Shown here in pieces: positions 28,474-44,546 of a DNA stretch of 64,000 nt (positions within the stretch are counted from its first letter, which is position 1; each line of letters starts with the position of its first letter). This DNA is from an uncultured Eubacteriales bacterium (GTDB lineage: Bacteria > Bacillota > Clostridia > Oscillospirales > Oscillospiraceae). A program made the position numbers and the translations under genes. Location of the stretch: positions 124,001-188,000 of the forward strand of contig ONPF01000003.1 in the NCBI GenBank assembly GCA_900319635.1. Direction: 5' to 3'. Below the pieces are notes generated by a model. It saw only the letters and a program-made list of their open reading frames with translations, was not told the origin of the DNA and ran no database searches.

Positions 28474-29382
28474 TTACTTGCTGTATTCCTTGATGATCTC
28501 TACGATCTCCTGACCGATGCGGGCCTGGGCCTCAACGGTGGCGGCGCCGATGTGCGGCGTGCAGGAGACATGGGGGTGAGAGTACAGGGCGGAGTTGGAG
28601 GTGGGCTCGCTTGCCCAGACGTCCAGACCGGCAGCGCGAACCTTGCCGGACTCCAGCGCGGCCAGCAGAGCGTCCTCGTCCACGTTGCCGCCGCGGGAGG
28701 TGTTGATGATGACAACGCCGTCCTTCATCTTGGCGATGGACTCGGCATTGACGATGGGGGACTCGGCAAAGGGCGCGTGGACGGAGATGAAATCGGACTT
28801 TTCCAGCAGCTCGTCCAGGGAGACGTAGGGCACGCCGTCACGGGCGACTGTGCCCGGCTCATGGTGCACGCCGTAGGCCATGATTTTCATGCCGATGGCC
28901 TTGGCGATGCGGCCCAGGGTGGCGCCGATGCGGCCGTAGCCGATGATGCCCAGGGTCTTGCCGTTGAGCTCAAAGCCCTTGCCGTAGGACTTCTTCTCCC
29001 AGAGGCCGCTGCGCATGGTGTAGCCGGCGTGGGAGATGTAGCGGGCGCAGGAGAGCATGTGTGCCAGAGCCAGCTCCGCCACGGACTCGGAAGAGGCCAG
29101 GGGTGTGTTGCGCACGGCGATCTCGCAGTCCGCCGCGTGACCGACGTCGATGTTGTCCACGCCGACACCGCCGCGGATGATGAGCTTCAGGCGGCCCTTG
29201 GCGGCCTCGTCAATCTGAGCGGCGCGAACCTTGGTCTTGGAGCGGACGACAACAGCGTCAAAGTCCCGCAGGGCGGCGCCCAACTGATCGGGCTCATAGA
29301 ACTGCTCCACAACCTCATGACCCATCTCGCGCAGCTGCGCAAGGGCCTTCTTATCCATACCGTCGGTAACCAGAATACGCAT
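28474..29382 (-). CDS. serA: D-3-phosphoglycerate dehydrogenase, short form
   Basis: Oxidises 3-phosphoglycerate to 3-phosphohydroxypyruvate with NAD, the first step of serine synthesis. 302 residues, without the C-terminal ACT or ASB domains of longer SerA proteins, so serine feedback by an ACT domain is not expected. NAD-binding loop GYGRIG with the preceding strand LGIIG; catalytic residues lie in the INTSRGGNVDEDAL (Arg), DVWASEP (Glu) and TPHIGA (His) motifs. AGGAGG site before the ATG. It lies 46 bp after serC. Confidence 0.94.
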   Translation of the reverse strand: MRILVTDGMDKKALAQLREMGHEVVEQFYEPDQLGAALRDFDAVVVRSKTKVRAAQIDEAAKGRLKLIIRGGVGVDNIDVGHAADCEIAVRNTPLASSESVAELALAHMLSCARYISHAGYTMRSGLWEKKSYGKGFELNGKTLGIIGYGRIGATLGRIAKAIGMKIMAYGVHHEPGTVARDGVPYVSLDELLEKSDFISVHAPFAESPIVNAESIAKMKDGVVIINTSRGGNVDEDALLAALESGKVRAAGLDVWASEPTSNSALYSHPHVSCTPHIGAATVEAQARIGQEIVEIIKEYSK

Positions 29383-29428: not shown

Positions 29429-30517
29429 TTACTGGCGCTCGGCCTCGAACTTCTTCAGGAACTCGACCAGGGCGACCACGCCTTCCTTGGGCATGGCGTT
29501 GTAGATGCTGGCGCGCAGGCCGCCAACGCTCTTGTGGCCCTTCAGATTGTCGTAGCCGGCGGCCTTGGTGGCCTTCACGACCTCGGCGTCCAGATCGGCG
29601 CTCTCGGTGACGAAGGGGACGTTCATCAGGCTGCGGAACTCCTTGTCCACAGTGCCGCGGAACATCTTGGACTCGTCCAGGAAGTCGTAAAGGATCTTGG
29701 CCTTCTCCTCGTTGCGGCGGGCCATCTCTTCCAGACCGCCGATGCTCTTGAGGTACTTGAAGACCTTGCCGCAGCAGTAGATCGCCCAGCAGTTTGGGGT
29801 GTTGTACATGGAACCGTTCTTGTCCTGAATGTCGTAGCGCATGTAGACAGGAACCTTGGGATCCAGATCCTCGCGGATCAGATCCTCGCGGATGATGACC
29901 ACGCTCATGCCGGCGGGGCCCACATTCTTCTGCACGCCGGCGTAGATGAGACCGTAGTCGGCCACGTTGCAGGGCTTGGAGAGGAACATGGAGCTCTGGT
30001 CGGAGACCAGGATGTGGCCCTTGGTGTTGGGAAGCTGCTGGTAGGTCAGGCCGTGGATGGTCTCGTTCTCGCAGATATAGACGTAGTCGGTATCCTCGGG
30101 AATGTCCAGATCGGAGCAGTCGGGGATATAGCTGAAGTTGCGGTCCTTGGAGCTGGCGGCGACGATGACTTCGCCGTACTTCTTGGCCTCGGCGATAGCC
30201 TTCTTGGACCAGGCACCGGTCTCGATATAGACGGCCTTGCCGTTCTTCATCAGGTTCAGGGGAATGGCTGCAAACTGCAGCGTGGCGCCTCCCTGCAGGA
30301 ACAGAATCCGATAGTTATCGGGGATGTGCATCAGGTCGCGCAGATCCTGTACGGCCTCGTCCACGATCTGCTGGAAGACCTTGGAGCGGTGAGACATTTC
30401 CATGACGCACATGCCGCTGCCGCGGTAGTTCATCATCTCATCCCGGATCTCCTCCAGGACAGGCTCCGGCATCATGGCGGGGCCGGCGGAAAAGTTATAG
30501 GTTCTGCCGTAATTCAT
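29429..30517 (-). CDS. serC: Phosphoserine aminotransferase
   Basis: A PLP enzyme that transfers an amino group from glutamate to 3-phosphohydroxypyruvate, making phosphoserine. 362 residues. It opens with YNFSAGPAMMPEPVLEEI, the SerC hallmark, has LFLQGGATLQFAAIPLNL, and DQSSMFLSKP around the PLP-bearing region with YAGVQKNVGPAGM (catalytic Lys in QKN). GGVR-like GGLRASIYNAMP binds the substrate phosphate near the end. AGGAGG site eight bases before the ATG. First gene of serC-serA-DUF1015, controlled by a glycine riboswitch upstream. Confidence 0.96.
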   Translation of the reverse strand: MNYGRTYNFSAGPAMMPEPVLEEIRDEMMNYRGSGMCVMEMSHRSKVFQQIVDEAVQDLRDLMHIPDNYRILFLQGGATLQFAAIPLNLMKNGKAVYIETGAWSKKAIAEAKKYGEVIVAASSKDRNFSYIPDCSDLDIPEDTDYVYICENETIHGLTYQQLPNTKGHILVSDQSSMFLSKPCNVADYGLIYAGVQKNVGPAGMSVVIIREDLIREDLDPKVPVYMRYDIQDKNGSMYNTPNCWAIYCCGKVFKYLKSIGGLEEMARRNEEKAKILYDFLDESKMFRGTVDKEFRSLMNVPFVTESADLDAEVVKATKAAGYDNLKGHKSVGGLRASIYNAMPKEGVVALVEFLKKFEAERQ

Positions 30518-30616: not shown

Positions 30617-30655
30617 AAAAAAAGAGACAAAAAGACCCCTTGATCCTTTTGCCTC
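30617..30655 (-). terminator. Riboswitch-controlled terminator before serC
   Basis: On the minus strand GAGGCAAAAGGATC (30642-30655) can pair with GGTCTTTTTGTCTC (30624-30637) over 14 positions, three of them G-U, with an AAGG loop and seven U's after it. The left arm is the 3' side of the second glycine aptamer, so the two structures exclude each other. Confidence 0.78.
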
Positions 30656-30820
30656 CGTCCTGACCTGAGAGATTCCCTTCCGCCCGCAGGCTTCCGGTTG
30701 CCCCTTTGGTGTGCAGACTGACCCGCACTTTCCGAAGTGTCGTCCGGATCCGATCCTTTTGCCTGAGAGTTTTTGCATTCCCCTTCGGCGCCGCCCGAGG
30801 CGGTCTCTCTCGGAATCCTT
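30642..30820 (-). promoter_or_regulatory. Tandem glycine riboswitch (gcvT type)
   Basis: Two aptamers in series on the minus strand. Aptamer 1 has GAGAGA, GCGCCGAAGGGG and AACTCTCAGGCAAAAGGA (about 30820 to 30750). Aptamer 2 has CACTTCGGAAAGTG, ACCAAAGGGGCAA and TCTCTCAGG...GGCAAAAGGA (about 30747 to 30645). These are the conserved blocks of the glycine riboswitch class. The overlap with the terminator suggests that glycine binding keeps the left arm in the aptamer and turns expression on. Confidence 0.9.
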
Positions 30821-30910
30821 CAACCGACCATAATTCTGTTTCCGCCCAGCATAATAAGTGCAACTGAACCAAAAAATGCAGAATTCTCTCTTTGGATTTC
30901 GTACAAAAAG

Positions 30911-31056: not shown

Positions 31057-31797
31057 ATGTCTCAGGTATATGAAATGTCAATCGCGGGGCAGCCGCTTCG
31101 ATATACCTTTCTTTACCCGGAGACGCGCTTCTTCCTCCGTCCGCTGCCGCGCAGAGTGGAGGGAGAGGACTGCGACATCGCTGTGACGCCGGAAAAAATT
31201 GATCTGGGGCGAAACTTTCTTGAGCCCGGTTCGTCAGACGCCTATGTGGAGTATCGCTGCTTGATCGAGCTCACAGCGCGGCGGCTGCTGCGCAGTGGCG
31301 GGTGCATTTTTCATGCGGTGGCCTTCTTCTGGAAGGAGCGCGCTTGGCTGCTGACTGCGCCCAGCGGAGTTGGAAAAACCACCCAGCTTCTCAATTGGCA
31401 GCGTCTGCACCCGGAGGAGGTCACGGTGATCTCCGGCGACATGCCCGCCCTTGAGCCCAGGGAGGACGGCGCGGTCTGGGTGCATCCCAGCTCCTGGAAC
31501 GGGAAGGAGAACCTGTCTTCCCGCATTTCCGCGCCTCTCGGCGGCATCGTGCTGCTTGAGCAGGGGAAAGAGAATTGCATTGCCCCGCTTTTGCCGCGGG
31601 ATGGCATGCTGCCGCTTCTGCAGCAGTTTATGGCGCTGCCCGAGACGGAAGAGGAGCTGCTGGCGATGGCTGCGCTGCTGGAGCGAATGCTGCGGACGGC
31701 TCCGGCCTGGAAGCTGGTTAACCTGGGAGACGACGCCTCCACAGAGCTGCTTCGCAATACGCTGCTGGCCGATTTGAAGGAAAGGGGAGAGGCTTGA
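31057..31797 (+). CDS. HPr kinase-like P-loop protein
   Basis: A 246-residue protein with the fold signature of HPr kinase/phosphorylase-related kinases found with PqqD proteins. It has a P-loop APSGVGKTT at 101-109 after a FHAVAFFW strand, a possible catalytic Asp128 in VISGDMP, and a later VHPSSWNGKENL segment. It is shorter than true HprK (about 310 residues) and lacks the N-terminal HprK domain. In lasso-peptide clusters such proteins phosphorylate a serine of the peptide. Here it is the first gene of an operon; its stop overlaps the PqqD start (TGATG). The substrate is unknown. Confidence 0.78.
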   Translation: MSQVYEMSIAGQPLRYTFLYPETRFFLRPLPRRVEGEDCDIAVTPEKIDLGRNFLEPGSSDAYVEYRCLIELTARRLLRSGGCIFHAVAFFWKERAWLLTAPSGVGKTTQLLNWQRLHPEEVTVISGDMPALEPREDGAVWVHPSSWNGKENLSSRISAPLGGIVLLEQGKENCIAPLLPRDGMLPLLQQFMALPETEEELLAMAALLERMLRTAPAWKLVNLGDDASTELLRNTLLADLKERGEA

Positions 31798-32096
31798 TGG
31801 ATCGCTATGTGACAAGGCCCGGTGTGGTGCTGACCTCGATCTGCGACGAGTATATGCTCCTTGCGGCGAAGGCCGCCCGGGAGCATTGTCCCTACATGAC
31901 CCAGCTCAATGAGAGCTCCGCCTTTTTATGGAGACGCCTGGAGCAGGGAGCGGATCCTGATGCACTGGAGCAAGCCGTTTCAGAGGAATATGAGCTGGCG
32001 GATCCCGCGGATGCGCGGGAGGCGATTCACGGCTTTTTAGATCAAATGCTGCAGCTTGGCTATTTGCTGCGGGAAGGAGAAGAACATGAAGAATAA
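31797..32096 (+). CDS. PqqD-like peptide-binding protein
   Basis: A 99-residue protein of the PqqD type, a winged-helix RiPP recognition element that binds leader peptides and presents them to modifying enzymes. The N-terminal RPGVVLTSICDEYMLL forms the beta part, LNESSAFLWRRLEQGADPDALEQAV the helices, and the final LQLGYLLREGEE strand completes the fold. Translationally coupled to the kinase gene by a one-base overlap. Its last codons hold the ribosome-binding site of the next gene. Presence beside a kinase and a nucleotidyltransferase argues for a peptide or protein substrate. Confidence 0.82.
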   Translation: MDRYVTRPGVVLTSICDEYMLLAAKAAREHCPYMTQLNESSAFLWRRLEQGADPDALEQAVSEEYELADPADAREAIHGFLDQMLQLGYLLREGEEHEE

Positions 32097-32370
32097 GAAG
32101 ATGCTGTTGATCTGCGGAGCAGCCCTGCTGGTGCTGGTAGTCGTGCTGCTGATCGTTTTCCTTGGCGGCTCCGGTGACAAGGAGGAGCCCGGTGAGGAGG
32201 AAGCAACTGCGCATGTGGAGGACACCCAGCCAACGGAATCTGCGCAGGATGGGGAAAAGGAGCTCACCGAAGAGCCTGAGGAGGAAAGCACCGAATCGGC
32301 CCAGCTCATCGAGAGCGAGGGCGACCTGATCATCACCATCCCCGATGACGAGGAATCCGACGGATTCTGA
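32086..32370 (+). CDS. Small acidic membrane-anchored peptide, unknown function
   Basis: A 94-residue protein. A basic MKNKK start and one hydrophobic helix (about 6-28) are followed by an extremely acidic Glu/Ser/Thr-rich tail, which would lie outside the cell, ending in TIPDDEESDGF. AAGGAG lies six to seven bases before the ATG, and the gene overlaps the PqqD gene by 11 bp. No family recognised. The Ser/Thr-rich tail could be a substrate of the neighbouring kinase, but if it is exported the kinase would have to act before export. This is speculation from position. Confidence 0.72.
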   Translation: MKNKKMLLICGAALLVLVVVLLIVFLGGSGDKEEPGEEEATAHVEDTQPTESAQDGEKELTEEPEEESTESAQLIESEGDLIITIPDDEESDGF

Positions 32371-32377
32371 TTGCCGG

Positions 32378-33586
32378 ATGGACAGCACGGAAAGGCTTTT
32401 TTTAGAGGCGCTGCGCTGCGGCGTCGCCGGACAGCCAGTCCCCTGGACGGAGGAGCCGGACGGAGCCACGCAAATCGCCCTCGTCCGCCTGGCAAGAGCC
32501 CAGGCGCTGCAGCCGGTGATCGCGCATGCGATTTCCGGCTGCCCTGCCATGGAAGGCTCCCGGGCGCTTGCTGCCTTGAAACGCGAGGCGCGGGCGGTTA
32601 CCATCCGCCAAGCGACCCGCACGGCGGAATTTTTGCTGCTGCTGCGGGAGCTGAACGCGCGTGGACTGCGCCCCGCGGTGTTCAAAGGCGCCGTATGCCG
32701 GAGCCTGTACCCGGAGCCGGAGCAGCGCCCCTCTTCGGACGAGGATATCCTCATCGCGGCGGAGGATTTTCCGGCATATCACAAGGCGCTGCTGGACTGT
32801 GGCCTGCAACTCCTGCGCACGGAGGAGCCTTTGACGGATCCTGACGAGGTCACCTATGTGGATCCGGATCGGGATCTGTATCTGGAGCTGCACCTGCGGC
32901 TTTTCCCGTCGGACTCCGCCGCCTATGGGGACTGCAACCGCTTCCTGGAGGGGGCCCTGTCCCGCAGGGTGCGGGTGAGCGTTTACGGGCAGACGCTGGA
33001 GACCCTTCATCCCACGGATCATCTGCTGTTTCTGCTCTGCCACGCCTATAAGCACATTCTGCACGGCGGCGTCGGGATCCGGCAGATCTGCGATCTCTGC
33101 CTCTTCGCCCGGCGGTATGCGGCGGAGATCGACTGGAGCCGCGTGCGCCGCGCCGCAGAGGAGCTGAGGATCGAGACCCTGTCTGCTGCCTTCTTCCGCA
33201 TTGGAGAGCGGCATCTGGGGATTCCCGGGCCGATGGCCTTTGCGGATCTGTCGCCGGAGGAGGAGCCGCTTTTGCATGATTGCCTGACCGGCGGCCTTTA
33301 CGGTGCGGACGATCCCGATCGCCTCCACAGCAGCAATCTGACTCTGGAGGCGATAGCGGCGGAGAAGCAGGGGAGACGTCAGCTCGGTCTCGCCAAGGCG
33401 CTGTTCCCCTCCGCGGCCACGCTGTCCGGGCGCTTTCCCTATCTATATAAGCGCCCCTGGCTGCTTCCGGTGGCCTGGACGCAGCGCATTTGGGGCTACC
33501 TGCGTGAAAGGCGTGCTCCTTCCAAAACCCTGCAGATCGGGCAGGAACGCATCAAGCTTCTACGGCGGTACCGACTGCTGGACTGA
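32378..33586 (+). CDS. Nucleotidyltransferase family protein (NTP_transf_5-like)
   Basis: A 402-residue protein of the uncharacterised nucleotidyltransferase family often seen with PqqD and HprK-like genes. The core is VFKGAVCRSLYPEPEQRPSSDEDILI at 101-126, with the metal-binding Asp121 and Asp123 and the strand around YLELHLRLF carrying a further acidic residue. A helical domain follows (TDHLLFLLCHAYKHILHGGVGIRQICDL), ending in a basic tail. In lasso clusters this family modifies the phosphorylated peptide further. No good ribosome-binding site was seen at 32378; an in-frame ATG at 32345 overlaps the upstream gene, so coupling is likely. Confidence 0.8.
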   Translation: MDSTERLFLEALRCGVAGQPVPWTEEPDGATQIALVRLARAQALQPVIAHAISGCPAMEGSRALAALKREARAVTIRQATRTAEFLLLLRELNARGLRPAVFKGAVCRSLYPEPEQRPSSDEDILIAAEDFPAYHKALLDCGLQLLRTEEPLTDPDEVTYVDPDRDLYLELHLRLFPSDSAAYGDCNRFLEGALSRRVRVSVYGQTLETLHPTDHLLFLLCHAYKHILHGGVGIRQICDLCLFARRYAAEIDWSRVRRAAEELRIETLSAAFFRIGERHLGIPGPMAFADLSPEEEPLLHDCLTGGLYGADDPDRLHSSNLTLEAIAAEKQGRRQLGLAKALFPSAATLSGRFPYLYKRPWLLPVAWTQRIWGYLRERRAPSKTLQIGQERIKLLRRYRLLD

Positions 33587-33630
33587 TTGTGGAGTAAGGG
33601 TGCAATTCCATTTGAATTGACATTTTCTAG

Positions 33631-33650
33631 CGCAATGCGCTCATTTTTTG
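33631..33650 (+). terminator. Weak terminator after the nucleotidyltransferase gene
   Basis: A short AGCGCA/TGCGCT stem followed by CATTTTTTG. The rest of the 297-bp gap holds three AATTGACA boxes (33615, 33682 and 33744) and the promoter and 5' hairpins of the next gene. Confidence 0.45.
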
Positions 33651-33745
33651 AACGAGCCGTTGCGCTTGCTTTGCGATGACGAATTGACAGCCCTTGAAGC
33701 GTGATATTTTGGATAAAAAGGCGATGCTAACTACGAAAAATACAA

Positions 33746-33773
33746 TTGACATCTTGAAAAAAGTGTGTAAAAT
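33746..33773 (+). promoter_or_regulatory. Promoter of the 1702-residue surface-protein gene
   Basis: Consensus TTGACA (33746-33751), 16-bp spacer, TAAAAT (33768-33773). Two 5'-leader hairpins follow, including GGTGGAGTA/TACTCCGCC near 33792-33815. Confidence 0.7.
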
Positions 33774-33883
33774 ATAAAGTGTATGAGTATAGGTGGAGTA
33801 GTGTGTACTCCGCCCTGTCGACTACATATTGTATTCCGTAATCAAGTGGGTGCACAAGCGCCCGTTTCAAGGAGGTAGCAAGC

Positions 33884-36800
33884 ATGAGCAAGAGAATGAC
33901 GAAAGTTCTCTCGATGATCCTCACGCTGGTGATGTTCCTGTCCGTGTCCACCCCGGCTTTCGCCTGGGGCAATATCGGCATTGGAGAGGGCTGGGATCGT
34001 GACATCGGCGAGGACGAAGTGCGTGACTTTGACGTCGACGTCGAAGAAGAGAAAGAGGAGTATGACTACTTCTCGACCTTTGACGAGGAGACCGGCATCA
34101 ATGTGACGGTTGAGGCGCCAATGGGCGCGCTGCCTTTGCTGGCAGAGGTTCGCGTGGAGCCCGTGGATCCGGAAGCTGTCCGCGAAGCGGTCGACAGCGT
34201 GACGGAGGGCGAGCGCGAGATCCTGCTGGCCATGGACATTTCCTTCTGGCTGGAGGATGACGAGATCGAGCCGGAGGAGCCTGTGCGCGTGCGGATCGCT
34301 GCCCCCGAGCTGGAGGGCAGAAGCGACCTGACCGTGGTGCATATTCCCGACGAGGAAGAGCCCGAGTCCATCGACCTCATCACCGATGAGAACGACCTGA
34401 AGTTCGAGCTTGGCACCAACGAGATCTGCTTCGAGTCCGGCGACTTCTCCATCTACGCGGTGGTGGGGGACGACGTGATCTCCGATTCTTCCCGTCTTAC
34501 TGTCAACTTCATCCGCAAGATCGGCGATAAGGAGACCGTCATCACTACGGTCTATGTCAAGAACAGCGATAAGTATCTGGCGAAAGAGGAAGACAGAGTA
34601 GAGGGCGAGTCCTATATCAACGATATCGTGTTCGACCCCGGTCTGGGCGATGGCTACCAGCTTGGCACCAACATGTTCCGTGGTTGGACCATCGACGCGG
34701 CGGACGCCAACCCCCAGCCTCAGGCGACGGACGAGGATCCGAACCCCGATCCGATCCCCTATGGCGCCGGCTATAACCGGGACACGAAGGTCTATACGGT
34801 TGACGATATCAACAAGTTCCTTTCCGAGAAGCGTCTGGGGCACATTTCCGAGGGTGATGTGCTGAATGTCTACGCCATGATCTTCCAGACCTACACGATC
34901 TCCTACTTCGGCGCCAGCACGGACGTGTCCATGGGCATGCACACCGTGTTTGCTCCGCTGAACGAGAACGCCCAGGCTCCGTATACCATCGACATGACCT
35001 ATACCCCCGAGGATAACCAGCACTTCTTCGAGGGCTGGATGATCATGTCCGGCAAGGAGAACATCGTCAGCGCGGTGGATCCGGATGGGAATCCCATCAA
35101 CGGCCCCTATGTTGACATCAACGATGCGGCGGTCGCCAATCCTCCCGTAACGGCGACCGTCTTCCCCAACGGCTCCAAGCTGGTTGTCACCGGCAACGTG
35201 CAGTTCTCCGTTTCTCAGCCGGCCGGACACTGGCTGATCTTCAAGGAGAACGGCAAGGGCGCCACCTATAACGCGCCTCAGTTTGTCAAGAACGGGGAGA
35301 AGACCTTCCTGCCCACCAATGCGACCACGACGAACATGGTCCGCAACGGCTATGAATTCCTGGGCTGGTACGAGGTTGAGACGACCTTCGATGAGAACGG
35401 CCGTGCGCAGCCTGTGGTTGATGCAACGACCGGCGAATATGTCTTCAAGAGCAACTCCAAGTATGTGTTTGATCGCCCCCTGACGGTGGAGACCATCATC
35501 GCGGCCAAGTGGCAAGTGTCCAGCAGTGCGCAGTACACTGTCGTGATTTGGCGTCAGAACGTGGCCTGCACCGGCTATGACTTCGCGGAGAGCATTACCC
35601 TCTCCGGCACGCCCAACACGGAGATTCCCACTTCGAAAGTGAACTACAGTGGTACTCTGGGAGATAAAGACGCCTATCTGCTCATCAACAACAATGGGAC
35701 GCCTTACAGGGGCACGGACGGTGCTTATGAGAAGAATCCCAGTACGGCTAACCCCTACTGTGGCTTCCATCTCCAGAACATTACCTATGGTCCCAACGGC
35801 AAAAACATCAACCCCGAGGGAAACACCATTGTCAACGTCTATTACGACCGCAACGAGTATGAACTGCAATTCCAGATTGTGGGGTATGTATATACTGCTA
35901 CGACCAGCAACAACGGAACGCAGTACGGCCTGGTTGACGGTGAGTATGTGCAGCTGACCCGGCATGGATGGAATAATTATTATTGGACATATGGAGACAC
36001 GTGGCCAAGTGAGGGAACAAGATATACCGGAACACGGTATACTCGCTCCAACGGCTGGGTTTCGATCAAGACCATTACCGCTAAGTTTGGCCAGGATATC
36101 TCCGGCAATTTCGACATTGTAGGCAGCAACGGCGTAACCTATGACAACGGTGAGCGCTGGGATCCTCAGACGAATGATGCGGGATGGGAACAGGTAATGG
36201 TCTACATCGACACCATGCCTTCCTGCAATGTGGAATTCCATTTGGATGAGGCAAATCGCCCGCTCAAAACCATCAACTACTATGTGGAGGCTCTGCCCGA
36301 CGACGAAAACCAGGTTTCCGCGCCTGCTACTCTGTATAGCACCAGCAACAGTCCTGTGACCACCGACAAGTCCTTTGTCCTGTATCATAGTGTGAATGCG
36401 CGCTACAACGGCGTCACCATTGAGGACATTGTCTCGCTTCCTGGCTTTAGCGTGATCGGCATGGACAGCACGTACAGCGCGGTAAGTGGAGTAAATTACT
36501 GGATTTGGGATCAAAATGCTAACGGAACGCTGAACGTGTACTATTCCCGTGACCTTTTTGTCATCAACTATGAGGACGGCATTTATGTTGATGGCAACAA
36601 TAACCCCATTGATGAGCAGAAGCTGAGCGGCTTCGGTCAAAGCTCGGCGCTGATGTACGGCTCTGATATCAGTTCGTATAACAAAGGCGGTGCCAACTAC
36701 AAACAGCCTACCAGAAACGGATACGTGTTCGAGGGCTGGTATCTGGACGACAGCGGCACCTCTGCCGCGACCTTCACCACGATGCCCCGGGGCGGTATAA

Positions 36801-38992
36801 CGGTCTATGCCAAGTGGCGCCAGGTCCAGTACCGTGTCTTCCTGCACCCCAATGTGCCCAAAGACGACGAGACCCTGTTCTGGGGCTCTGACGACCAGTC
36901 CATGAACTTCCGTATCGCCCAGGGCGACTACGTGAGTACGCCCACCGGCACTCGCACCGGCTATGTCTTCGTCGGCTGGTATCTTGACGAGGACTTCGAT
37001 GAAGTCTTTGACGCGGAAAGAGTCCCCCTGACCGACGACAACGTCACCGCCGAGTATGACAAGACGGCGACAGAGAACATGACGGATAATGAGCAGACCT
37101 GGACCAATCCCAAGACCGGCAAGGTGGAAAACAGACCCATCAACAAATGGGGCCTCCTGGAGCCGAACGATCCCGGCATCAATAAGGACGTGAACCGTTT
37201 CTGGATCACCAACAAGCTGGATCTCTACGCCAAGTGGAAAGCGGTCCTGGACGGCGCGAAAGGCATCAGCGTCATTTATGACGAAGTTCCCAAGGGAGCC
37301 GATACCACGGAAAGCGGCCACGGCGTCGCCGGCTCCGCGCCTGCAGACGGCAACCGCCTCTATGAGGATAAATCCAAGGCCATCGCCCAGCCTGCATCTA
37401 CCGCTCTGGCAGAGGATGAGCACTTCCTGTACTGGGTCGTGCAGACGTGGGATAAGACGGCAAACAATGGCGAGGGCGCTTATGTTGACGTCAAGGTGGA
37501 CGGCGATATCATCAAGGTCTATCCCGGCGACAACTTCATGGTGAGAGCCGACTACGCCAGGATCACGCCCGATCCCGATCACGCGGGTAAGAACTTCTAC
37601 ACGGTGCAGCTCCGCGCGGCCTACGGCAAGAAGGACGGCCCCGAGCCCACGCACATCAAATGGTACTCCAATATCTACGATGTTGCCGGCAACAAGTTTA
37701 TCGACACTGAGACCAAGGGCGACATGAATCACCCCACCAACGCGACCTGGAACGAAAACGGCGGCTGGTACATCAAGCAGGAGGATGTTCAGATCAACAA
37801 AGCGGTTCCCATCCCCGCGCCTCCCTACAGTATGGAAGGCTACACCTTCCTGGGCTGGGGCCGCGTCTGTGACCCGGACAGCGTTCCCGAGGGCGGCAAG
37901 GCTTACGTCACCGATCCCTCCACGCTGACCGAGGAGGATCTGTACATCAAGTGGGTCCCCGCGGCGAATAACATTCCTGCCCACTACGAGGCCATGCTGC
38001 CTGCCGCAGCAGCCTCCGGCAATGTAGTTCCCGGCAATACCAGAGCCGACGGAGAGGAGCTCACCTGGCAGACGGTTCAGTATGTGGCGGCGGACGAACA
38101 GAAGCCTTACCACGACATGTACGCCATCTGGGGCGGCGAGTTCAAGGTTTACCACTCCGGTATCGAGGGCGGCGCTGTTGAGACCTATTCCCTCAGCAGA
38201 GACAACAAGACCTTCGATTTGACTCGCTACTACACCAATACCAGAGCCGGCGGAGATGAACATACCGGCGAGTACAAGAATAAAGGCTTCCTCTACGGCG
38301 GCTATTATCTGGAAGGTGGCTTCAAGCCTGCGGCTTACACGGAGAAAACGGTTGGTGAAGGAGATGCCCAGAAGACCATCTATATTCCCACCAGTACCTG
38401 CGCGGCTTACGACGGCGCCAACTGGACCTGGACCACGCCTGTGACGGATCAGCCCGGTAACGCGATCACCCCGAAGGGCGGCGTGACCTACTACATCAAG
38501 GAGGTCCCGGCCGACAAGTACCTGCAGCCTTACTTCCACTACACCTACAAGAAGGGGATTGAGGGCGAGCCCATCGTCACCGCCTGGCTGATCTCCGACC
38601 TGGACGACCAGAATTACACCGAGTCCGGCTTCGTGATCGTAGACGCCAAGGGGAAGGCCAAGATTTGCTCGTCTCTGACAGTGCAGAACGCGGTGGGCGG
38701 CAACACCATCAAGCTCACGGCCAAGCGCATCTTCGGTGCTGACGGCTCCGGACTGCTGACCTATCGTCGTGTCATCGAGAACTATGCCGGAATCAATGGA
38801 TTTGGCGACGGCGCCAAGATCCTGCAGTATTGGGTTACCCCTGATGGTCTGATCGTCACCGGCACCACGTCTCGTGTCTATACCGGCACTGCGGGCAAGA
38901 CGGGCATTTCCTGCACGCCCACTCCCGTCAGCTCCACCATCGCCCTGTTTGGGAATAACTCTCTTCCCGTGCCCGACCCGGACAAGTATTGA
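33884..38992 (+). CDS. Giant secreted InlB-repeat surface protein
   Basis: A 1702-residue exported protein. Signal peptide 1-27 (AWG follows the AFA cleavage site). Very acidic segment at 40-60. A conserved N-terminal beta domain at about 65-200 resembles the ZU5-like region before repeats in clostridial adhesins. InlB/Listeria-Bacteroides-type repeats with the pattern GY.FxGWY...TxYAKW lie near 380, 486-538, 945-975, 1024-1114 and 1319-1356. The C-terminus is plain (PVPDPDKY) with no sortase motif, membrane anchor or dockerin, so attachment is unexplained. It has its own promoter inside the PqqD/kinase locus and a strong AAGGAGG site. Possible substrate or structural partner of the neighbouring modification enzymes. 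Confidence 0.85.
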   Translation: MSKRMTKVLSMILTLVMFLSVSTPAFAWGNIGIGEGWDRDIGEDEVRDFDVDVEEEKEEYDYFSTFDEETGINVTVEAPMGALPLLAEVRVEPVDPEAVREAVDSVTEGEREILLAMDISFWLEDDEIEPEEPVRVRIAAPELEGRSDLTVVHIPDEEEPESIDLITDENDLKFELGTNEICFESGDFSIYAVVGDDVISDSSRLTVNFIRKIGDKETVITTVYVKNSDKYLAKEEDRVEGESYINDIVFDPGLGDGYQLGTNMFRGWTIDAADANPQPQATDEDPNPDPIPYGAGYNRDTKVYTVDDINKFLSEKRLGHISEGDVLNVYAMIFQTYTISYFGASTDVSMGMHTVFAPLNENAQAPYTIDMTYTPEDNQHFFEGWMIMSGKENIVSAVDPDGNPINGPYVDINDAAVANPPVTATVFPNGSKLVVTGNVQFSVSQPAGHWLIFKENGKGATYNAPQFVKNGEKTFLPTNATTTNMVRNGYEFLGWYEVETTFDENGRAQPVVDATTGEYVFKSNSKYVFDRPLTVETIIAAKWQVSSSAQYTVVIWRQNVACTGYDFAESITLSGTPNTEIPTSKVNYSGTLGDKDAYLLINNNGTPYRGTDGAYEKNPSTANPYCGFHLQNITYGPNGKNINPEGNTIVNVYYDRNEYELQFQIVGYVYTATTSNNGTQYGLVDGEYVQLTRHGWNNYYWTYGDTWPSEGTRYTGTRYTRSNGWVSIKTITAKFGQDISGNFDIVGSNGVTYDNGERWDPQTNDAGWEQVMVYIDTMPSCNVEFHLDEANRPLKTINYYVEALPDDENQVSAPATLYSTSNSPVTTDKSFVLYHSVNARYNGVTIEDIVSLPGFSVIGMDSTYSAVSGVNYWIWDQNANGTLNVYYSRDLFVINYEDGIYVDGNNNPIDEQKLSGFGQSSALMYGSDISSYNKGGANYKQPTRNGYVFEGWYLDDSGTSAATFTTMPRGGITVYAKWRQVQYRVFLHPNVPKDDETLFWGSDDQSMNFRIAQGDYVSTPTGTRTGYVFVGWYLDEDFDEVFDAERVPLTDDNVTAEYDKTATENMTDNEQTWTNPKTGKVENRPINKWGLLEPNDPGINKDVNRFWITNKLDLYAKWKAVLDGAKGISVIYDEVPKGADTTESGHGVAGSAPADGNRLYEDKSKAIAQPASTALAEDEHFLYWVVQTWDKTANNGEGAYVDVKVDGDIIKVYPGDNFMVRADYARITPDPDHAGKNFYTVQLRAAYGKKDGPEPTHIKWYSNIYDVAGNKFIDTETKGDMNHPTNATWNENGGWYIKQEDVQINKAVPIPAPPYSMEGYTFLGWGRVCDPDSVPEGGKAYVTDPSTLTEEDLYIKWVPAANNIPAHYEAMLPAAAASGNVVPGNTRADGEELTWQTVQYVAADEQKPYHDMYAIWGGEFKVYHSGIEGGAVETYSLSRDNKTFDLTRYYTNTRAGGDEHTGEYKNKGFLYGGYYLEGGFKPAAYTEKTVGEGDAQKTIYIPTSTCAAYDGANWTWTTPVTDQPGNAITPKGGVTYYIKEVPADKYLQPYFHYTYKKGIEGEPIVTAWLISDLDDQNYTESGFVIVDAKGKAKICSSLTVQNAVGGNTIKLTAKRIFGADGSGLLTYRRVIENYAGINGFGDGAKILQYWVTPDGLIVTGTTSRVYTGTAGKTGISCTPTPVSSTIALFGNNSLPVPDPDKY

Positions 38993-39022
38993 TCGGTCAA
39001 CAAAAGAAAGAGGTGAATGACA

Positions 39023-39316
39023 ATGGCGAAAAGAATAGGATTTAGTCCCCTCATCCTTTTGGGTGACACGCCCCGCGATGACACCGTGATCGGCGGTGGC
39101 ACCGGCCAGGGCGGTTTGAATCCGGAAGTAGTGCGGCCGAGCTATGAAAGTTGGCTAAACTCCGACTTGGCGGATGATTACTATCCCGCCGGAGTAGGCA
39201 TAAACATTGATGACTATGCTTGTTGGTGGCTGGATCAAGGCTTTACTGCTGAAGAATTTGAGGCAGCGAATCCTGGCCGCAGTTGGAACAGTGCGTGGTA
39301 CACCATGTTTGACTAA
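39023..39316 (+). CDS. Unrecognised 97-residue protein after the giant gene
   Basis: A small protein with a basic start (MAKRIGFSPLILLGD), a Gly-rich stretch (VIGGGTGQGG), an acidic and aromatic middle (SDLADDYYPAG, DDYACWWLDQ) and an aromatic C-terminus ending WYTMFD. AAAGAGGTG lies seven bases before the ATG at 39023, so the ATG at 39017 is less likely. It is 30 bp after the giant gene and followed by a strong terminator, so it is cotranscribed with it. No signal peptide or membrane helix is evident. It could be a precursor recognised by the PqqD-like protein, or a chaperone for the giant protein; neither is shown. Confidence 0.7.
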   Translation: MAKRIGFSPLILLGDTPRDDTVIGGGTGQGGLNPEVVRPSYESWLNSDLADDYYPAGVGINIDDYACWWLDQGFTAEEFEAANPGRSWNSAWYTMFD

Positions 39317-39333
39317 ATCTGCTAAACTGCAAA

Positions 39334-39366
39334 AACAGCGCGGAGAGCGATCTCCGCGCTGTTTTC
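39334..39366 (+). terminator. Intrinsic terminator after the 97-residue gene
   Basis: A perfect 13-bp stem (39334-39346 with 39351-39363), GCGA tetraloop and TTTTCC tail. Confidence 0.9.
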
Positions 39367-39373
39367 CTATCTG

Positions 39374-39451
39374 TAGGGGAGGAGCTTGCCACTCCCGCGG
39401 ATCCTCTGAACGCCTTTGTGCATCGTAGGAGTCGGCGCTCTCGACGACTCG
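39374..39451 (+). repeat. GTAGGGG-type intergenic repeats
   Basis: A GTAGGGG...CACTCCCGCGG element (39374-39402) and a degenerate second copy starting CGTAGGAGTCGGCG (39424-39451). Same class as at 2092 and within the coding repeat at 21184. Confidence 0.45.
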
Positions 39452-39469
39452 TGTTTTCGCAGCATTTCC

Positions 39470-39541
39470 CGCAGATTTCCCGAAAAGTGCACCCGCAGAT
39501 TTCCCGAAAAGTGCACCCGCAGATTTCCCGAAAAGTGCTTG
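39470..39541 (+). repeat. Three tandem 24-bp repeats overlapping the ABC exporter promoter
   Basis: Unit CGCAGATTTCCCGAAAAGTGC plus ACC, at 39470, 39494 and 39518. The first two copies are identical; the third differs only in its last three bases. The array ends inside the -35 box of the exporter promoter, a position fit for an operator. The repeat count and lack of spacers exclude a CRISPR array. Confidence 0.85.
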
Positions 39542-39567
39542 TGCTTTTAAACCGATAATGCTATAAT
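39539..39567 (+). promoter_or_regulatory. Promoter of the ABC exporter/exopolysaccharide control operon
   Basis: TTGTGC (39539-39544), 17-bp spacer and a consensus TATAAT (39562-39567), 36 bp before the exporter start. Confidence 0.7.
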
Positions 39568-39603
39568 CTATAGTTGATGTGGTATGTATTTCAGGGAGGC
39601 AGT

Positions 39604-41388
39604 ATGCAGCAATCGGAAGAGGAAAAACGGGCGTTTTTCGGATCGCTCCATACACTGCGCCAGCGCATCAAAGAGGGCACCTTTGGAGAAATCCTGGACG
39701 ACTGGCGCTGGATCCTTGGCTACAGCAAGCGCCATAAAATGGCCGTGATCTTTTACACGCTCCTCGGCATTTTCAGCACCAGCTTTGCCCTGGCAGCCAG
39801 CGTGGCAGGGAAATACCTGATCGATATTATCACCGGCTATGAGACCAGCAAGCTCGGCCTTCTGATCGCAATTTTGCTGGGCAGCGCCGCGTTCAGTCTG
39901 TTTTTTTCCAATCTGATCAACCGCATCTCCGCAAAGCTCTCTATTGACATCAATAATGATATCCAGGCGGACATCTTCGACCAGATCATAGATGTGGACT
40001 GGAAGGCCATCAACGGCTATTCCAGCGGTGATCTTCTGAACCGCTTTAACAGCGATGTGAACACAGTCAGCAAAAACGCCATCTCCTGGCTGCCCTCTAT
40101 CATCATCTCCGTTTACAACTTTATCGTCACCTTTGCGCTGATCTGGCACTATAACAAGGTCATGTCCCTGCTTGCCTTCGCTAGTGCGCCGGTCATGCTG
40201 CTCATGTCCCGGTTCCTGATCCGCAAACAGCGGGACTATGCCCGTAAGGTCAAGGAGACCGGCAGCGAGATGATGGGCTTCGAGGTGGAAACCTTTTATA
40301 ATTTTGACACCATCAAGTCCTTCGGCGTGATGGAAAACTACGGGAAAAAGCTCCGCCGCTGGCAGCAAAAGCTGAAAAAAATCAGCCTGGACTATAACAT
40401 GTTTACCATCAAGACTAACGTGTTTCTTTCTGTTCTGGGCATGATCGTCCAGTATGCGGCCTTTGGATATTGCCTGTTTCTTCTATGGGGACATCAGATC
40501 ACTTACGGCACCATGACCCTGTTTCTGGAGCAGCGGGTGCGGCTGGCAAATGCATTCAACAGCGTGATCGGCATTGTGCCCAGCTTCCTGACCAGCTCTG
40601 TCTCCGCCCACCGCATCCGGGAGCTGATCGAGCTGCCGCGGGAGCGTCATCTGCCGGAGACCCGGGAGCTGGAGCCCCTGGCTGACGGCGGCTTGGAAGT
40701 GCGAATGGAAGGCCTGAGCTTCTCCTATGTGGAGGAGAAACGGGTCATTACCGGCTCCGGCTTTCGTGCCGCTCCGGGAGAGATCGTGGCGCTGGTCGGC
40801 CCCTCCGGCGAGGGGAAGACAACCATGATCCGCTTGATCCTTGGCCTTGTTCAGCCCGATTCGGGCATCGCCGTATTACGCAGCCGCGATGGGACAGAGG
40901 TTCCCATGAATGCGGAATCCCGCTGCTTCTTCTCGTATGTCCCTCAAGGCAACGCGATACTTTCCGGCACGGTGGCGGAAAACCTGCGCATGGTACGGGA
41001 GGACGCCACGGATGAGGATATCATTGAGGCGCTGAAGCTGGCTTGTGCTTGGGATTTCGTCTCCAAGCTGCCCGATGGCATCAACAGCAAAGTAGGAGAG
41101 CGCGGCCGCGGTTTTTCCGAGGGTCAGGCACAGCGCATTGCCATCGCCCGCGCGATCCTGCGGGATGCACCGATCCTGCTGCTGGACGAGGCGACCTCCG
41201 CACTGGATGTTGCGACGGAACGCCAGGTGCTGCGCAATATCATTCGCCAGCGGCCCAACAAAACCTGTATTGTTACAACGCATCGCCCTACAGTTCTGAA
41301 TCTCTGCCAACGGGTCTACCGTGTCATGGATACCCGTGTGACGGAATTAAGCGAGGAAGAATCCAGCCGCATGTCGATGGATTTCTGA
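39604..41388 (+). CDS. MsbA-like ABC exporter (fused permease and ATPase)
   Basis: A 594-residue half-transporter that works as a dimer. An unusually long N-terminal cytoplasmic stretch (about 40 residues) is followed by six membrane helices (about 45-320) and an ATPase domain: Walker A VGPSGEGKTT, Q-loop PQGN, signature in the degenerate form FSEGQAQRIAIARAIL, Walker B LLLDEATSALD and H-loop THRP. There is no C39 peptidase domain, so it would not cleave a leader. GGGAGG lies five bases before the ATG at 39604; a longer start at 39574 would overlap the promoter. Position suggests export of the modified peptide or of a glycan precursor; the cargo is unknown. Confidence 0.88.
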   Translation: MQQSEEEKRAFFGSLHTLRQRIKEGTFGEILDDWRWILGYSKRHKMAVIFYTLLGIFSTSFALAASVAGKYLIDIITGYETSKLGLLIAILLGSAAFSLFFSNLINRISAKLSIDINNDIQADIFDQIIDVDWKAINGYSSGDLLNRFNSDVNTVSKNAISWLPSIIISVYNFIVTFALIWHYNKVMSLLAFASAPVMLLMSRFLIRKQRDYARKVKETGSEMMGFEVETFYNFDTIKSFGVMENYGKKLRRWQQKLKKISLDYNMFTIKTNVFLSVLGMIVQYAAFGYCLFLLWGHQITYGTMTLFLEQRVRLANAFNSVIGIVPSFLTSSVSAHRIRELIELPRERHLPETRELEPLADGGLEVRMEGLSFSYVEEKRVITGSGFRAAPGEIVALVGPSGEGKTTMIRLILGLVQPDSGIAVLRSRDGTEVPMNAESRCFFSYVPQGNAILSGTVAENLRMVREDATDEDIIEALKLACAWDFVSKLPDGINSKVGERGRGFSEGQAQRIAIARAILRDAPILLLDEATSALDVATERQVLRNIIRQRPNKTCIVTTHRPTVLNLCQRVYRVMDTRVTELSEEESSRMSMDF

Positions 41389-41398
41389 GTTTTTGCCT

Positions 41399-42148
41399 AT
41401 GATTGATATTCATACCCACGTACTGCCTGGTGTGGATGATGGCTCCCAGAGCATGGAGGAGTCGCTGGAGATGCTGGCTTTGGCCGCGGACAGCGGCGTG
41501 AAGACACTGGTCGCTACGCCACACTGCAATATTCCCGATGAGTTTGATAATTATGCCGGACCTGAGCTGGAGGCGCTGTTTGTCCGGCTGGATGAGGAAC
41601 GGAAAAAGGCAGGGATCCCACTTCGCCTTTGTCGGGGAATGGAGGTTTTTGCCACAGAAGAGCTGCCCGAGCTGCTGCAGAACGGGCGCGTTTGGACGCT
41701 GAACGGCACCCGATATTTCCTGATAGAATTTGCTTTTCATGAGGATCCGGACTTTTGTGACAATGTGCTTCGGCGCTGCCGCGAGCTTGATTATCTGCCG
41801 ATCATCGCCCACCCGGAGCGCTATTATTTCGTGCAGGATGATCCGGGTATCGCCTATGAGTGGTGCCGACAGGGCTATGGCCTGCAGCTGAATAAGGGGA
41901 GCATTCTGGGGCGATTTGGGGAACGGCCTTGGCGCACGGCAGAGCTTTTGCTGCAGCACGGTTTGGCCGCCTGTGTCGCCAGCGACGCCCACAGCCCGTA
42001 TCAGCGCAGCACGCATATGGGAGAGTTACGGGAATATTTGACCGACGAGCTGGGAGAGTCCTATATGCGATTGCTCCTGGAGGAAAACCCGGCACGTATC
42101 CTCGATGGTCGAGAACTGCTGGGATATGAGCCGATCCCGTTTCGATAA
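41399..42148 (+). CDS. CpsB/CapC-like PHP-domain tyrosine-protein phosphatase
   Basis: A manganese-dependent phosphatase that removes phosphate from the tyrosine cluster of the BY-kinases encoded downstream, thus controlling polysaccharide synthesis. About 249 residues with PHP motifs in order: IDIHTHVLPGVDDGSQSM (residues 2-19), TPHCNIP, FEFA-like IEFAFHE, PIIAHPERY, and ASDAHS near the end. It starts 10 bp after the ABC gene without an obvious ribosome-binding site, so translational coupling is likely. Role assignment is by family and by the adjacent kinase genes. Confidence 0.9.
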   Translation: MIDIHTHVLPGVDDGSQSMEESLEMLALAADSGVKTLVATPHCNIPDEFDNYAGPELEALFVRLDEERKKAGIPLRLCRGMEVFATEELPELLQNGRVWTLNGTRYFLIEFAFHEDPDFCDNVLRRCRELDYLPIIAHPERYYFVQDDPGIAYEWCRQGYGLQLNKGSILGRFGERPWRTAELLLQHGLAACVASDAHSPYQRSTHMGELREYLTDELGESYMRLLLEENPARILDGRELLGYEPIPFR

Positions 42149-42174
42149 TCTTGCAAACAGGAGGACATTCGCTT

Positions 42175-43065
42175 GTGAGAAGATTAAGGTTATTGCTGCT
42201 GGTATTTTTTCTGGCAGTATTTGCTGTCTTTATGGCGTCCAATATCCGGGAGTATTTGACATCGGACTATGTGGCGCCGGAAATTCATGCGAACGAGGAT
42301 TCCATGCAGGTCAGTGTGACCGTAAGCGACGAAGAGCTGCTTGCCGGGATGACCGCAAATGATAATCTTGACGGGGATGTTACGGAAAGCCTTGTGGTGG
42401 TGTCCAAGTCTAAGTTTATTGCCAGGAATACCCGAAATGTGAACTATGCGGCCTTTGACCAGAATAATAATGTTGGTACCTACACCCGGAAAATCGTGTA
42501 TACAGACTATTATTCCCCACGTTTTTTGATGACGGAACCCCTTCGCTTTGTGGAGGGCAACTCCAGCTACGATTATCTGAAACACATACGGGCTGAGGAT
42601 TGCCTGGACGGTAATATCACGACCCAGATCAAGATCACGTTTGGTGAAAAGGAGATGGCCGGCGAGGCCTACAGCACCCAAAATATCAATCTGCAGGTCA
42701 CAAACAGCGCTGGTGATTCTTCCGTGTTGGAGTTAACGGCGACGTTTGAAGACTATGACAGTTATTCAAAGGCTTCTCCGGCGCTGAATGATTACATCGT
42801 TTATGTGAAAAAAGGGGACAAGCCCAATTATCGCGCGAATCTTACAGGAATCTGGACCGCGGGAAATCAGCGCAGGTTCTCTGATTTGGGCTTCGATCCG
42901 GATCAGGATGTGAGCATCGACGACAGCGGAGTTGATTATCATACTCCTGGTGTATATAGGGTCACATATAAGCTCACCCGAGCCACTCAGAACGCCACAG
43001 GCGGCACTTATCGGACTGACTTTGGAACAGCGACGCTGATTGTCGTTGTGGAGGATACGCCATGA
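42175..43065 (+). CDS. Membrane-anchored protein with DUF5011/Ig-like domains, polysaccharide locus
   Basis: A 296-residue protein. A basic start and one hydrophobic helix (about 5-24) anchor it, and the rest lies outside. Two or three beta-sandwich segments with the DUF5011-like pattern NLDGDVTESLVV and CLDGNITTQIKI at about 63-75 and 146-157 follow, and a third near the end. GTG start at 42175 with GGAGG ten bases upstream; a longer ATG-less frame is less likely. It overlaps the first BY-kinase gene by ATGA. Likely an extracytoplasmic partner of the polysaccharide machinery; exact role unknown. Confidence 0.75.
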   Translation: MRRLRLLLLVFFLAVFAVFMASNIREYLTSDYVAPEIHANEDSMQVSVTVSDEELLAGMTANDNLDGDVTESLVVVSKSKFIARNTRNVNYAAFDQNNNVGTYTRKIVYTDYYSPRFLMTEPLRFVEGNSSYDYLKHIRAEDCLDGNITTQIKITFGEKEMAGEAYSTQNINLQVTNSAGDSSVLELTATFEDYDSYSKASPALNDYIVYVKKGDKPNYRANLTGIWTAGNQRRFSDLGFDPDQDVSIDDSGVDYHTPGVYRVTYKLTRATQNATGGTYRTDFGTATLIVVVEDTP

Positions 43066-44537
43066 ACGAGAACAGACAGGATTATTCCTCTCTGCTGGAA
43101 AAACTTGATCTTTACAGTATTTTGCGGGATATTGTACGGAATCTCTGGGCGATCGTTTTAGGCGCTATCGCCGTTGCCATGATCGTCAATATGTCTGTCC
43201 GGGCGGATTTCCGTAATTCCTATTCTACTTCAGCCACATTTGTGGTGACCTCCAAGACCTCCAGCAACTATGCGTACAGCAATCTGTCTGCTGCGTCTAC
43301 CATGGCCAACAGCTTTACCAATATCCTCAACAGCAATCTAATGAAGAAAAAGGTCTGTGAGGATCTGGGAACGGATACCTTCCGCGCGACCGCCAGCGCC
43401 AGAGTGATTACCGGAACCAATCTGATGACCCTGAACGTGACCTCGGACACGCCGGAGAATACCTATCGTATCATCCGCTCCATCATGTATAACATGAACG
43501 ATCTGACACAGTTCGTATCCGAGGACATGGTGATGGATATTCTGCAGGATCCGGCTGTCCCTACCAAAGCAGATACGGCTTTTTCTGCTCGTTCTCAAAC
43601 CAAAAAAGCCTTCGTGCTGAGTTTTGCGGTCTTCGCCCTTGCCTTTGTGTACCTCTCTTATCGGAAGGAGACGGTGAAAGGCGAGAAGGATCTGGAGGAC
43701 AAGCTGGATGCGAAGTCGCTGGGGATGCTCTATTATGAGGAGAAGTTCAAATCGCCCGCGGACTGGCTGCGACACAAGAGGAGAAAGTATCTGGTTACGG
43801 AGCTCTCTGCGAAATTCGAATTCGTAGAGCGGTATAAGAAGATCGCTGCCCATCTCTCCGCCCAGGCACATAAAGCCGGCGCTAAGACGATCCTGGTCAC
43901 CAGCGTACAGGAACATGAAGGAAAGTCCACGGTTGCCGCAAATCTGGCGCTGACGCTGGTGCATCAGAATTATAAGGTGCTGCTGATCGACGGAGATATG
44001 CGGCGCCCTACTCAAAACTCTCTGTTCCTGAAGCCGGATGAAAAGCTGAAGGCAAGCCTGGGTTCCCTTTTGATGGGACAGGCAAACCTGAGTGACGCCA
44101 TCGTAAACGATGAGGAACATGGGCTGCATCTGCTGCTCAATAAGCGCAATTACACAAACTCTACGGACATCGTCTCGTCTGACTATATGACGCGGCTGAT
44201 TACGGTCGTCCGCAATTACTATGATTTTGTGATCATTGATTCTCCGCCCATGTCTCTCATGGCGGATGCGGAGGTTCTGGCGGATCTGTCCGATATGAGC
44301 TTGCTGGTCGTCAAATATGATACCGTGCTTGCCCGGGATTTGAACGATGCCATCGACTCTCTACGGGATGCCCGCGCAGAGTTTGCAGGCTGCATTCTGA
44401 ACCAGGTTCACACGCTGCCGGGATCCAGGAGAACCGTCGGCGGCTACGGCGGGTATGGGCGCTACGGCCGTTACGGCCGGTATGGCTATTATGGCCGCTA
44501 CGGCGAGTATGGCCATTACGGGAAGACGGAGAAGTGA
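43062..44537 (+). CDS. Wzz/BY-kinase fusion (first copy)
   Basis: A tyrosine autokinase that controls chain length and assembly of exopolysaccharide. 491 residues: N-terminal Wzz-like membrane domain with two helices (about 28-48 and 183-200) around an extracellular domain, then a cytoplasmic ATPase with Walker A SVQEHEGKST, Walker A' VLLIDGDMRRP and Walker B FVIIDSPP. The C-terminus is a tyrosine cluster, with repeated GRYGRYG-type units, that is the autophosphorylation site. Overlaps the upstream gene by four bases. In many Firmicutes adaptor and kinase are separate genes; here they are fused. Confidence 0.92.
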   Translation: MNENRQDYSSLLEKLDLYSILRDIVRNLWAIVLGAIAVAMIVNMSVRADFRNSYSTSATFVVTSKTSSNYAYSNLSAASTMANSFTNILNSNLMKKKVCEDLGTDTFRATASARVITGTNLMTLNVTSDTPENTYRIIRSIMYNMNDLTQFVSEDMVMDILQDPAVPTKADTAFSARSQTKKAFVLSFAVFALAFVYLSYRKETVKGEKDLEDKLDAKSLGMLYYEEKFKSPADWLRHKRRKYLVTELSAKFEFVERYKKIAAHLSAQAHKAGAKTILVTSVQEHEGKSTVAANLALTLVHQNYKVLLIDGDMRRPTQNSLFLKPDEKLKASLGSLLMGQANLSDAIVNDEEHGLHLLLNKRNYTNSTDIVSSDYMTRLITVVRNYYDFVIIDSPPMSLMADAEVLADLSDMSLLVVKYDTVLARDLNDAIDSLRDARAEFAGCILNQVHTLPGSRRTVGGYGGYGRYGRYGRYGYYGRYGEYGHYGKTEK

Positions 44538-44546
44538 GGTGCTGCC

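Follow-up and report, generated by a model that had tools for sequence, protein, structure and literature searches.

We analysed a 64,000-nucleotide stretch of DNA (the window) from an uncultured Eubacteriales bacterium of the Oscillospiraceae (assembly GCA_900319635.1, contig ONPF01000003.1, positions 124,001 to 188,000). Seven plus-strand genes at 31057-41388 probably encode a clostridial peptide-modification cassette that is similar to the system of the Linear Polyphosphorylated Peptides (LPP), built on an HprK-type kinase and guided by a ribosomally synthesized and post-translationally modified peptide (RiPP) recognition element (RRE), without a neighbouring SpI peptidase. In this cassette a 97-residue protein (SMALL) would be the substrate, with a giant secreted protein (GIANT) and an acidic membrane peptide (ACID) as its partners. 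Open reading frame (ORF) calls reproduced all seven genes, confirming the coordinates and gene content given in an initial annotation of this DNA.

The cassette opens with the kinase (KIN, 31057-31797, 246 amino acids, P-loop APSGVGKTT), the stand-alone RRE PqqD (31797-32096, 99 amino acids, PF05402 E 5.5e-12), the transmembrane-anchored ACID (32086-32370, 94 amino acids, ending IITIPDDEESDGF) and an NTP_transf_5 nucleotidyltransferase (NTP5, 32378-33586, 402 amino acids, PF14907 E 1.8e-46; an alternative start at 32345 gives 413 amino acids). These four genes overlap or nearly touch across 31057-33586. GIANT follows (33884-38992, 1702 amino acids, InlB repeats PF09479 E 2.1e-24, and PF18998), then SMALL (39023-39316) and an MsbA-like ABC exporter (ABC, 39604-41388, PF00664 and PF00005), for which the best NCBIfam models were MsbA_rel and MsbA, each below cut-off; a capsule operon comes immediately after. 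A promoter-like site (33746-33773, 11 of 12 in the promoter scan, which found 12 such sites in the region against 4.8 expected) lies 5' of GIANT, only 30 nt separate GIANT from SMALL, and a hairpin with a 15-pair stem (39332-39365, z -6.4), which the terminator scan did not list, lies 3' of SMALL. Together these features suggest that GIANT and SMALL share a transcript.

The description of KIN as HPr-kinase-like was invisible to Pfam, since Hpr_kinase was not matched and only AAA_22 appeared, below cut-off. Comparison of the sequence with the PDB was not decisive, with HprK 1jb1 (E 0.02) ranked under several ABC and P-loop matches. The predicted structure (pLDDT 96.5) bore the description out: the best of 382 PDB matches was HprK/P 1kkm (E 1.5e-6, probability 1.00, TM 0.38/0.51), followed by phosphoenolpyruvate carboxykinases (PEPCKs; probability 1.00, E about 1e-6), at moderate TM-scores of 0.38-0.55 by query length. 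The model thus predicts that KIN has an HprK/PEPCK-type P-loop fold. Residues His86, Lys107, Thr109 and Asp128, which may correspond to catalytic residues of HprK, were invariant in 31 sequences. KIN shares the fold and P-loop of HPr kinase/phosphorylase (1kkm and relatives) but has no Pfam Hpr_kinase match and adjoins an RRE, so that HPr would not be its expected substrate.

In the LPP complex, Asp70 of the RRE hydrogen-bonds the leader Tyr, and the D70A substitution weakens binding, as reported in PMC13381572. If SMALL is an RRE-bound precursor, the PqqD residue at this place should therefore track the leader residue. The best PDB sequence match of the window's PqqD was LppB 9x8z, a weak one (E 0.11), with Asn38 at the place of LppB Asn33 and Ala76 at that of LppB Asp70. 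We collected 96 PqqD proteins; for 35 of them a small ORF beginning with aromatic-xxP lay on the same strand no more than 3 kb away. Where the leader had Tyr, the column of LppB Asp70 held Asp in 22 of 25 cases; where it had Phe or Trp, in none of 10 (Fisher p 1.6e-6). This was the best of all alignment columns (runner-up 2.8e-3), and 0 of 300 permutations did as well. Further loci, fetched once the rule had been noticed, gave 37 PqqD and 11 motif pairs, in which Asp was present with 9/9 Tyr leaders and 0/2 Phe/Trp leaders. One locus (L060; L numbers denote loci and G numbers genomes examined) has two cassettes, one pairing a Trp leader with Thr and the other a Tyr leader with Asp. Of 120 small ORFs near PqqD, 37 had an aromatic-xxP start, as did 18 of 414 located elsewhere, and the 12 giant-type PqqD proteins of the set formed a supported clade (100/99) containing both leader types. 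A class-level set of 60 fetched matches held 32 PqqD genes and three motif pairs, of which L252 came from the organism of L074 and was already counted, L273 fits the rule and L287 does not. The window's own pair, a leader with Phe at Pro-2 and PqqD Ala76, suits the Phe class without being a strict match. This coupling, seen across relatives, suggests that SMALL proteins are precursors bound by PqqD. The initial annotation had suggested a short peptide or a surface protein as the target; leader-RRE coupling favours the 97-residue SMALL as the guided substrate and not ACID. As a separate observation, many class-level PqqD proteins carry Gly at the Asp70 place (e.g. L283, L285, L288, L292, L294), and their leader ORF was not found by the pattern.

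SMALL itself matched no family over cut-off in Pfam and NCBIfam scans, and its profile gave no more than weak matches to PDB sequences (best E 0.059). Its leader, MAKRIGFSPLIL, has Phe at Pro-2; many relatives fit the LPP leader motif [Y/W]xxPx[hydrophobic], often with Phe. The pattern Ser-[Phe/Tyr]-x-x-Trp is shared by 10 of 14 SMALL sequences, the window's Ser40 among them, which makes Ser40 the best candidate acceptor and a putative phosphorylation target. An EF-hand-like loop pattern was present in 7 of the 14, the window's SMALL not being one of them.

The same gene set is present in other genomes, indicating that its grouping is more than chance. A KIN profile run against the genomes of named species gave at least 234 relatives, from which 79 loci were kept; the first 20 (L053-L072) were annotated, plus a locus set fetched earlier. 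The usual order in related gut and rumen Clostridia was GIANT-SMALL-KIN-PqqD-ACID-NTP5, with the exporter and CpsB downstream in L035, L057 and L061 and divergent in L053, L054, L069 and L071. Locus annotation of relatives also supported the proposal that the small genes co-vary with the enzymes, as they usually travel together. We defined cassette-type kinases as the 23 that matched the window's KIN at E <= 1e-33, and a strict giant-small pair as an ORF of at least 800 amino acids, upstream of KIN, with an ORF of 28-185 amino acids starting no more than 150 nt behind it. Such a pair was found at 16 of the 23 kinases; in L067 and L071 it is ACID that directly follows the giant, with SMALL next, and the pair is also present at L076, just over the kinase threshold. 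The seven misses were the window, with the same parts in a different order, L036 (a 337-nt gap), L058 (only a 36-amino-acid piece called), L059 and L040 (near a contig end), and L039 and L065, which have no giant-small pair upstream of KIN. In G217, the genome of L039, GIANT-ACID-SMALL lies on another contig (L202) than the enzymes.

Co-occurrence was also seen at the level of genomes. The conserved C-terminal domain of GIANT (about 38150-38989 by domain alignment) was found in 8 of 300 sampled genomes of the window's family, and at the thresholds used all eight hold KIN (64/300, p 3e-6) and NTP5 (39/300, p 4e-8). At the same thresholds KIN, the GIANT domain, NTP5 and the exporter were all absent from G109, G224 and G264, of the same genus. 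With thresholds picked after the tables were seen, 11 of 12 exporter genomes fell among the NTP5 genomes (19 of 300). The window's own genome contains a second GIANT-SMALL pair, its SMALL 43% identical, with no kinase called beside it. Separately, a hydrophobic protein of 221-222 amino acids is conserved after NTP5 or between NTP5 and the exporter (L061 12877-13542, L067 7787-8452, L071 12079-12747); the L071 copy had no NCBIfam family match.

The adjacency of giant and small genes recurs across genera, with giants of differing domains, and other HprK/PqqD clusters likewise have a giant directly before a leader-bearing peptide (L151 and, with SpI, L072). Of 45 small ORFs that come straight after an ORF of at least 800 amino acids, 31 carried the leader motif, at loci preselected for the kinase and thus not as a genome-wide rate; this is the most unexpected result of the analysis. 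None of the listed giants has an LPxTG motif or a C-terminal transmembrane or strongly hydrophobic end. GIANT had no match among PDB sequences, and the all-beta model of its C-terminal domain (pLDDT 62.6) had no PDB match at E <= 0.001, from which nothing was concluded. A related class (L151 1645-11519, L155 1774-11403, L159 6389-13578) combines a giant, a Cys-containing peptide of 79-82 amino acids beginning MKK[TR]YCKP, a kinase, a radical SAM protein (PF04055 in L151 and L155) and PqqD; NTP5 is present in L151 and L155, and L151 has a metallophosphoesterase and a GH20 giant.

To characterize ACID we used 21 examples chosen by eye from the annotated loci. By simple pattern, 11 of the 21 have a lipobox-like anchor and 10 a transmembrane segment without a lipobox; the tails are acidic, and a permissive Gly-rich end pattern fits 20 of the 21 (not L042). 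Since the anchor type swaps while the tail is kept, this suggests that ACID works through its outer tail. None of the examples listed has an aromatic-xxP start. The 94-residue ACID of the window has no YxxP-type leader and resembles a partner anchored in the membrane more than a guided substrate. NTP5 had no match among PDB sequences. In L066 (4525-9806) the exporter carries a fused Rce1-like protease domain and NTP5 a fused GT2 domain, which hints that leaders may be removed by another route and that sugar may be transferred.

Taken by itself, the enzyme set has been described before. The initial annotation had named its belonging to an already described cluster as grounds against the proposal; this is in part what we found. 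LPP (Popov et al. 2026, PMC13381572), first seen within capsule loci of Bacilli, is defined by SpI, an RRE, an HprK-like kinase, an NTP transferase and an MsbA-like exporter; its LppK polyphosphorylates Ser3 of the core, and LppS takes off the leader. The present cassette shares with it an HprK-like kinase (by predicted fold), a discrete RRE, an NTP transferase, an MsbA-like exporter, a capsule-locus setting and, in many relatives, a precursor with an aromatic-xxP leader. It differs in being clostridial, in having no neighbouring SpI, in Phe or Trp leaders served by RREs without Asp70 besides Tyr ones, and in its usual partners, a secreted giant and a membrane peptide with an acidic tail. An SpI-like gene stands beside 1 of the 23 cassette-type kinases, compared with 55 of 139 others; the genes used as SpI queries are similar to archaeal-type signal peptidase I, although they score below the cut-off of TIGR02228. 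The main text of PMC13381572 does not contain the words secreted, surface, adhesin or phenylalanine, and our literature search recognised no description of this cassette with a giant protein; PMC13252029 and PMC7470986 added nothing on it.

In the mechanism that we propose, PqqD would bind the N-terminus of SMALL, and KIN would phosphorylate a Ser, Ser40 being the best candidate. NTP5 may then cap the phosphate with a further group (a hexose or a nucleotide), and the MsbA-like exporter would move the modified SMALL out of the cell. There SMALL is predicted to partner GIANT, with which it would be co-transcribed and which is secreted with no recognisable anchor of its own, and ACID would be a membrane-tethered third piece. 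The phosphorylation and capping steps are modelled on LPP, paeninodin and pseudomycoidin. PqqD-guided phosphorylation and transfer without a lasso cyclase, as first suggested for this locus, is supported as a prediction. A link of the product to exopolysaccharide was also suggested, and perhaps exists, judging from gene position alone.

Several observations weigh against this interpretation. The Phe of the window's SMALL sits at Pro-2 rather than Pro-3, off the strict motif by one residue. A SMALL subclass (e.g. L069, L071, L076, L167, L202) has no xxP start, and L067, of the same subclass, has an xxP motif without a tested match. The coupling rule has exceptions in L037, L072 and L051, where a fitting Phe peptide is located further away, and at class level in L287. 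Well supported tree branches give just two independent comparisons (p 0.5), so shared ancestry limits the coupling test. L057, L064 and L037 have no called ACID gene. The cassette has no SpI beside it to account for leader removal. Deletion of lppN changed nothing and LppN was inactive in the published host (PMC13381572), which makes the NTP5 step putative. The count of giant-small adjacencies and the motif-less SMALL subclass slightly lower our confidence in the proposed mechanism.

The same data could be read as a plain LPP or bacteriocin-like RiPP cluster, in which SMALL is cleaved, released and diffusible and GIANT is a mere neighbour in a surface-polysaccharide region. We consider this possible but rather unlikely. 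Its enzyme set would be that of LPP, which likewise lies in capsule loci (PMC13381572), and a leader peptide of 37-50 amino acids can stand in place of SMALL (L042, L064, L072). The lack of a neighbouring peptidase could also be accommodated: exactly one SpI-like gene was found in the window's own genome, in a second cluster of the order KIN-PqqD-SpI-like-ABC (L034 9346-12508, C32), and it could serve the cassette in trans. Against it stand the recurrence of giant-small adjacency across genera and giant domain types, the second GIANT-SMALL pair of the own genome, without enzymes beside it, and the separate contig of GIANT-ACID-SMALL in G217. Such pairs without adjoining enzymes would suit a SMALL that helps GIANT without being modified, as a calcium-binding chaperone might, with the enzymes acting on another substrate such as ACID. 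The EF-hand-like loop in half of the 14 SMALL sequences and the overlap of the ACID and PqqD genes in the window point the same way, but the coupling of leader and RRE, and the ACID examples listed, which have no aromatic-xxP start, make this improbable.

The reading as a degenerate paeninodin-type lasso-peptide cluster is already nearly refuted. The gene types for kinase, PqqD, NTP transferase and ABC protein are held in common, and phosphorylated lasso peptides of this kind share a Ser-phosphorylating kinase and an NTP_transf-type protein associated with hexoses carried by the phosphate (PMC9266682, PMC7533575); for pseudomycoidin, the kinase PsmK acts on the C-terminal Ser, and the hexoses depend on PsmN (PMC9266682). 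In contrast, the lasso cyclase and B2 peptidase are missing from the window's own genome (92% complete), in agreement with the initial annotation: no Transglut_core3 was found, and PF00733 (Asn_synthase) matched in two short stretches only, covering 37 and 60 of 354 model positions. We therefore rejected a lasso system for this genome. Further, the window's PqqD has Asn38 where paeninodin RREs carry Gly, and annotated relatives keep an intact cassette without lasso genes.

The genes around the cassette were also annotated. The capsule operon begins at 41393-46109 (+) with CpsB/CapC (PF19567, E 5.5e-57), an Ig-like membrane protein (PF16403), a Wzz protein (43062-44537, PF02706) and a second capsule-type AAA_31 protein (44547-46109, PF13614). 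Between SMALL and the exporter, a 24-nt unit is present in three perfect head-to-tail copies (39468-39538). Upstream of the cassette, a tandem glycine riboswitch (30653-30822, minus strand; two RF00504 matches of 60.5 and 33.2 bits) precedes the minus-strand genes 29429-30517 and 28474-29382, whose predicted products resemble serC and serA. A BspA-type leucine-rich-repeat protein of 1751 amino acids with a C-terminal type I dockerin is encoded at 21687-26942 (+; PF13306 E 5.7e-119, PF00404 E 1.3e-12).

The RRE-guided cassette shows that an RRE-kinase system exists without an SpI peptidase of its own, and it adds to the Tyr/Trp leader code a natural Phe class, whose RREs lack Asp, as predicted from the solved contact. 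It is conceivable, although doubtful, that modified SMALL attaches GIANT to the envelope via ACID and perhaps the capsule; in several relatives SMALL has a calcium-binding-type loop. If so, the bacterium would display a surface protein without sortase or C-terminal transmembrane anchors, and the route could in principle be shared by other pairs of a giant and a leader peptide beside HprK/PqqD genes (GH20, VWA and other giants). The position of the precursor gene directly behind giants of various kinds, at many of the examined loci, suggests a testable role, in which the modified peptide serves a surface protein, and this may be the first clue to the purpose of the recently described phosphorylated-peptide family.

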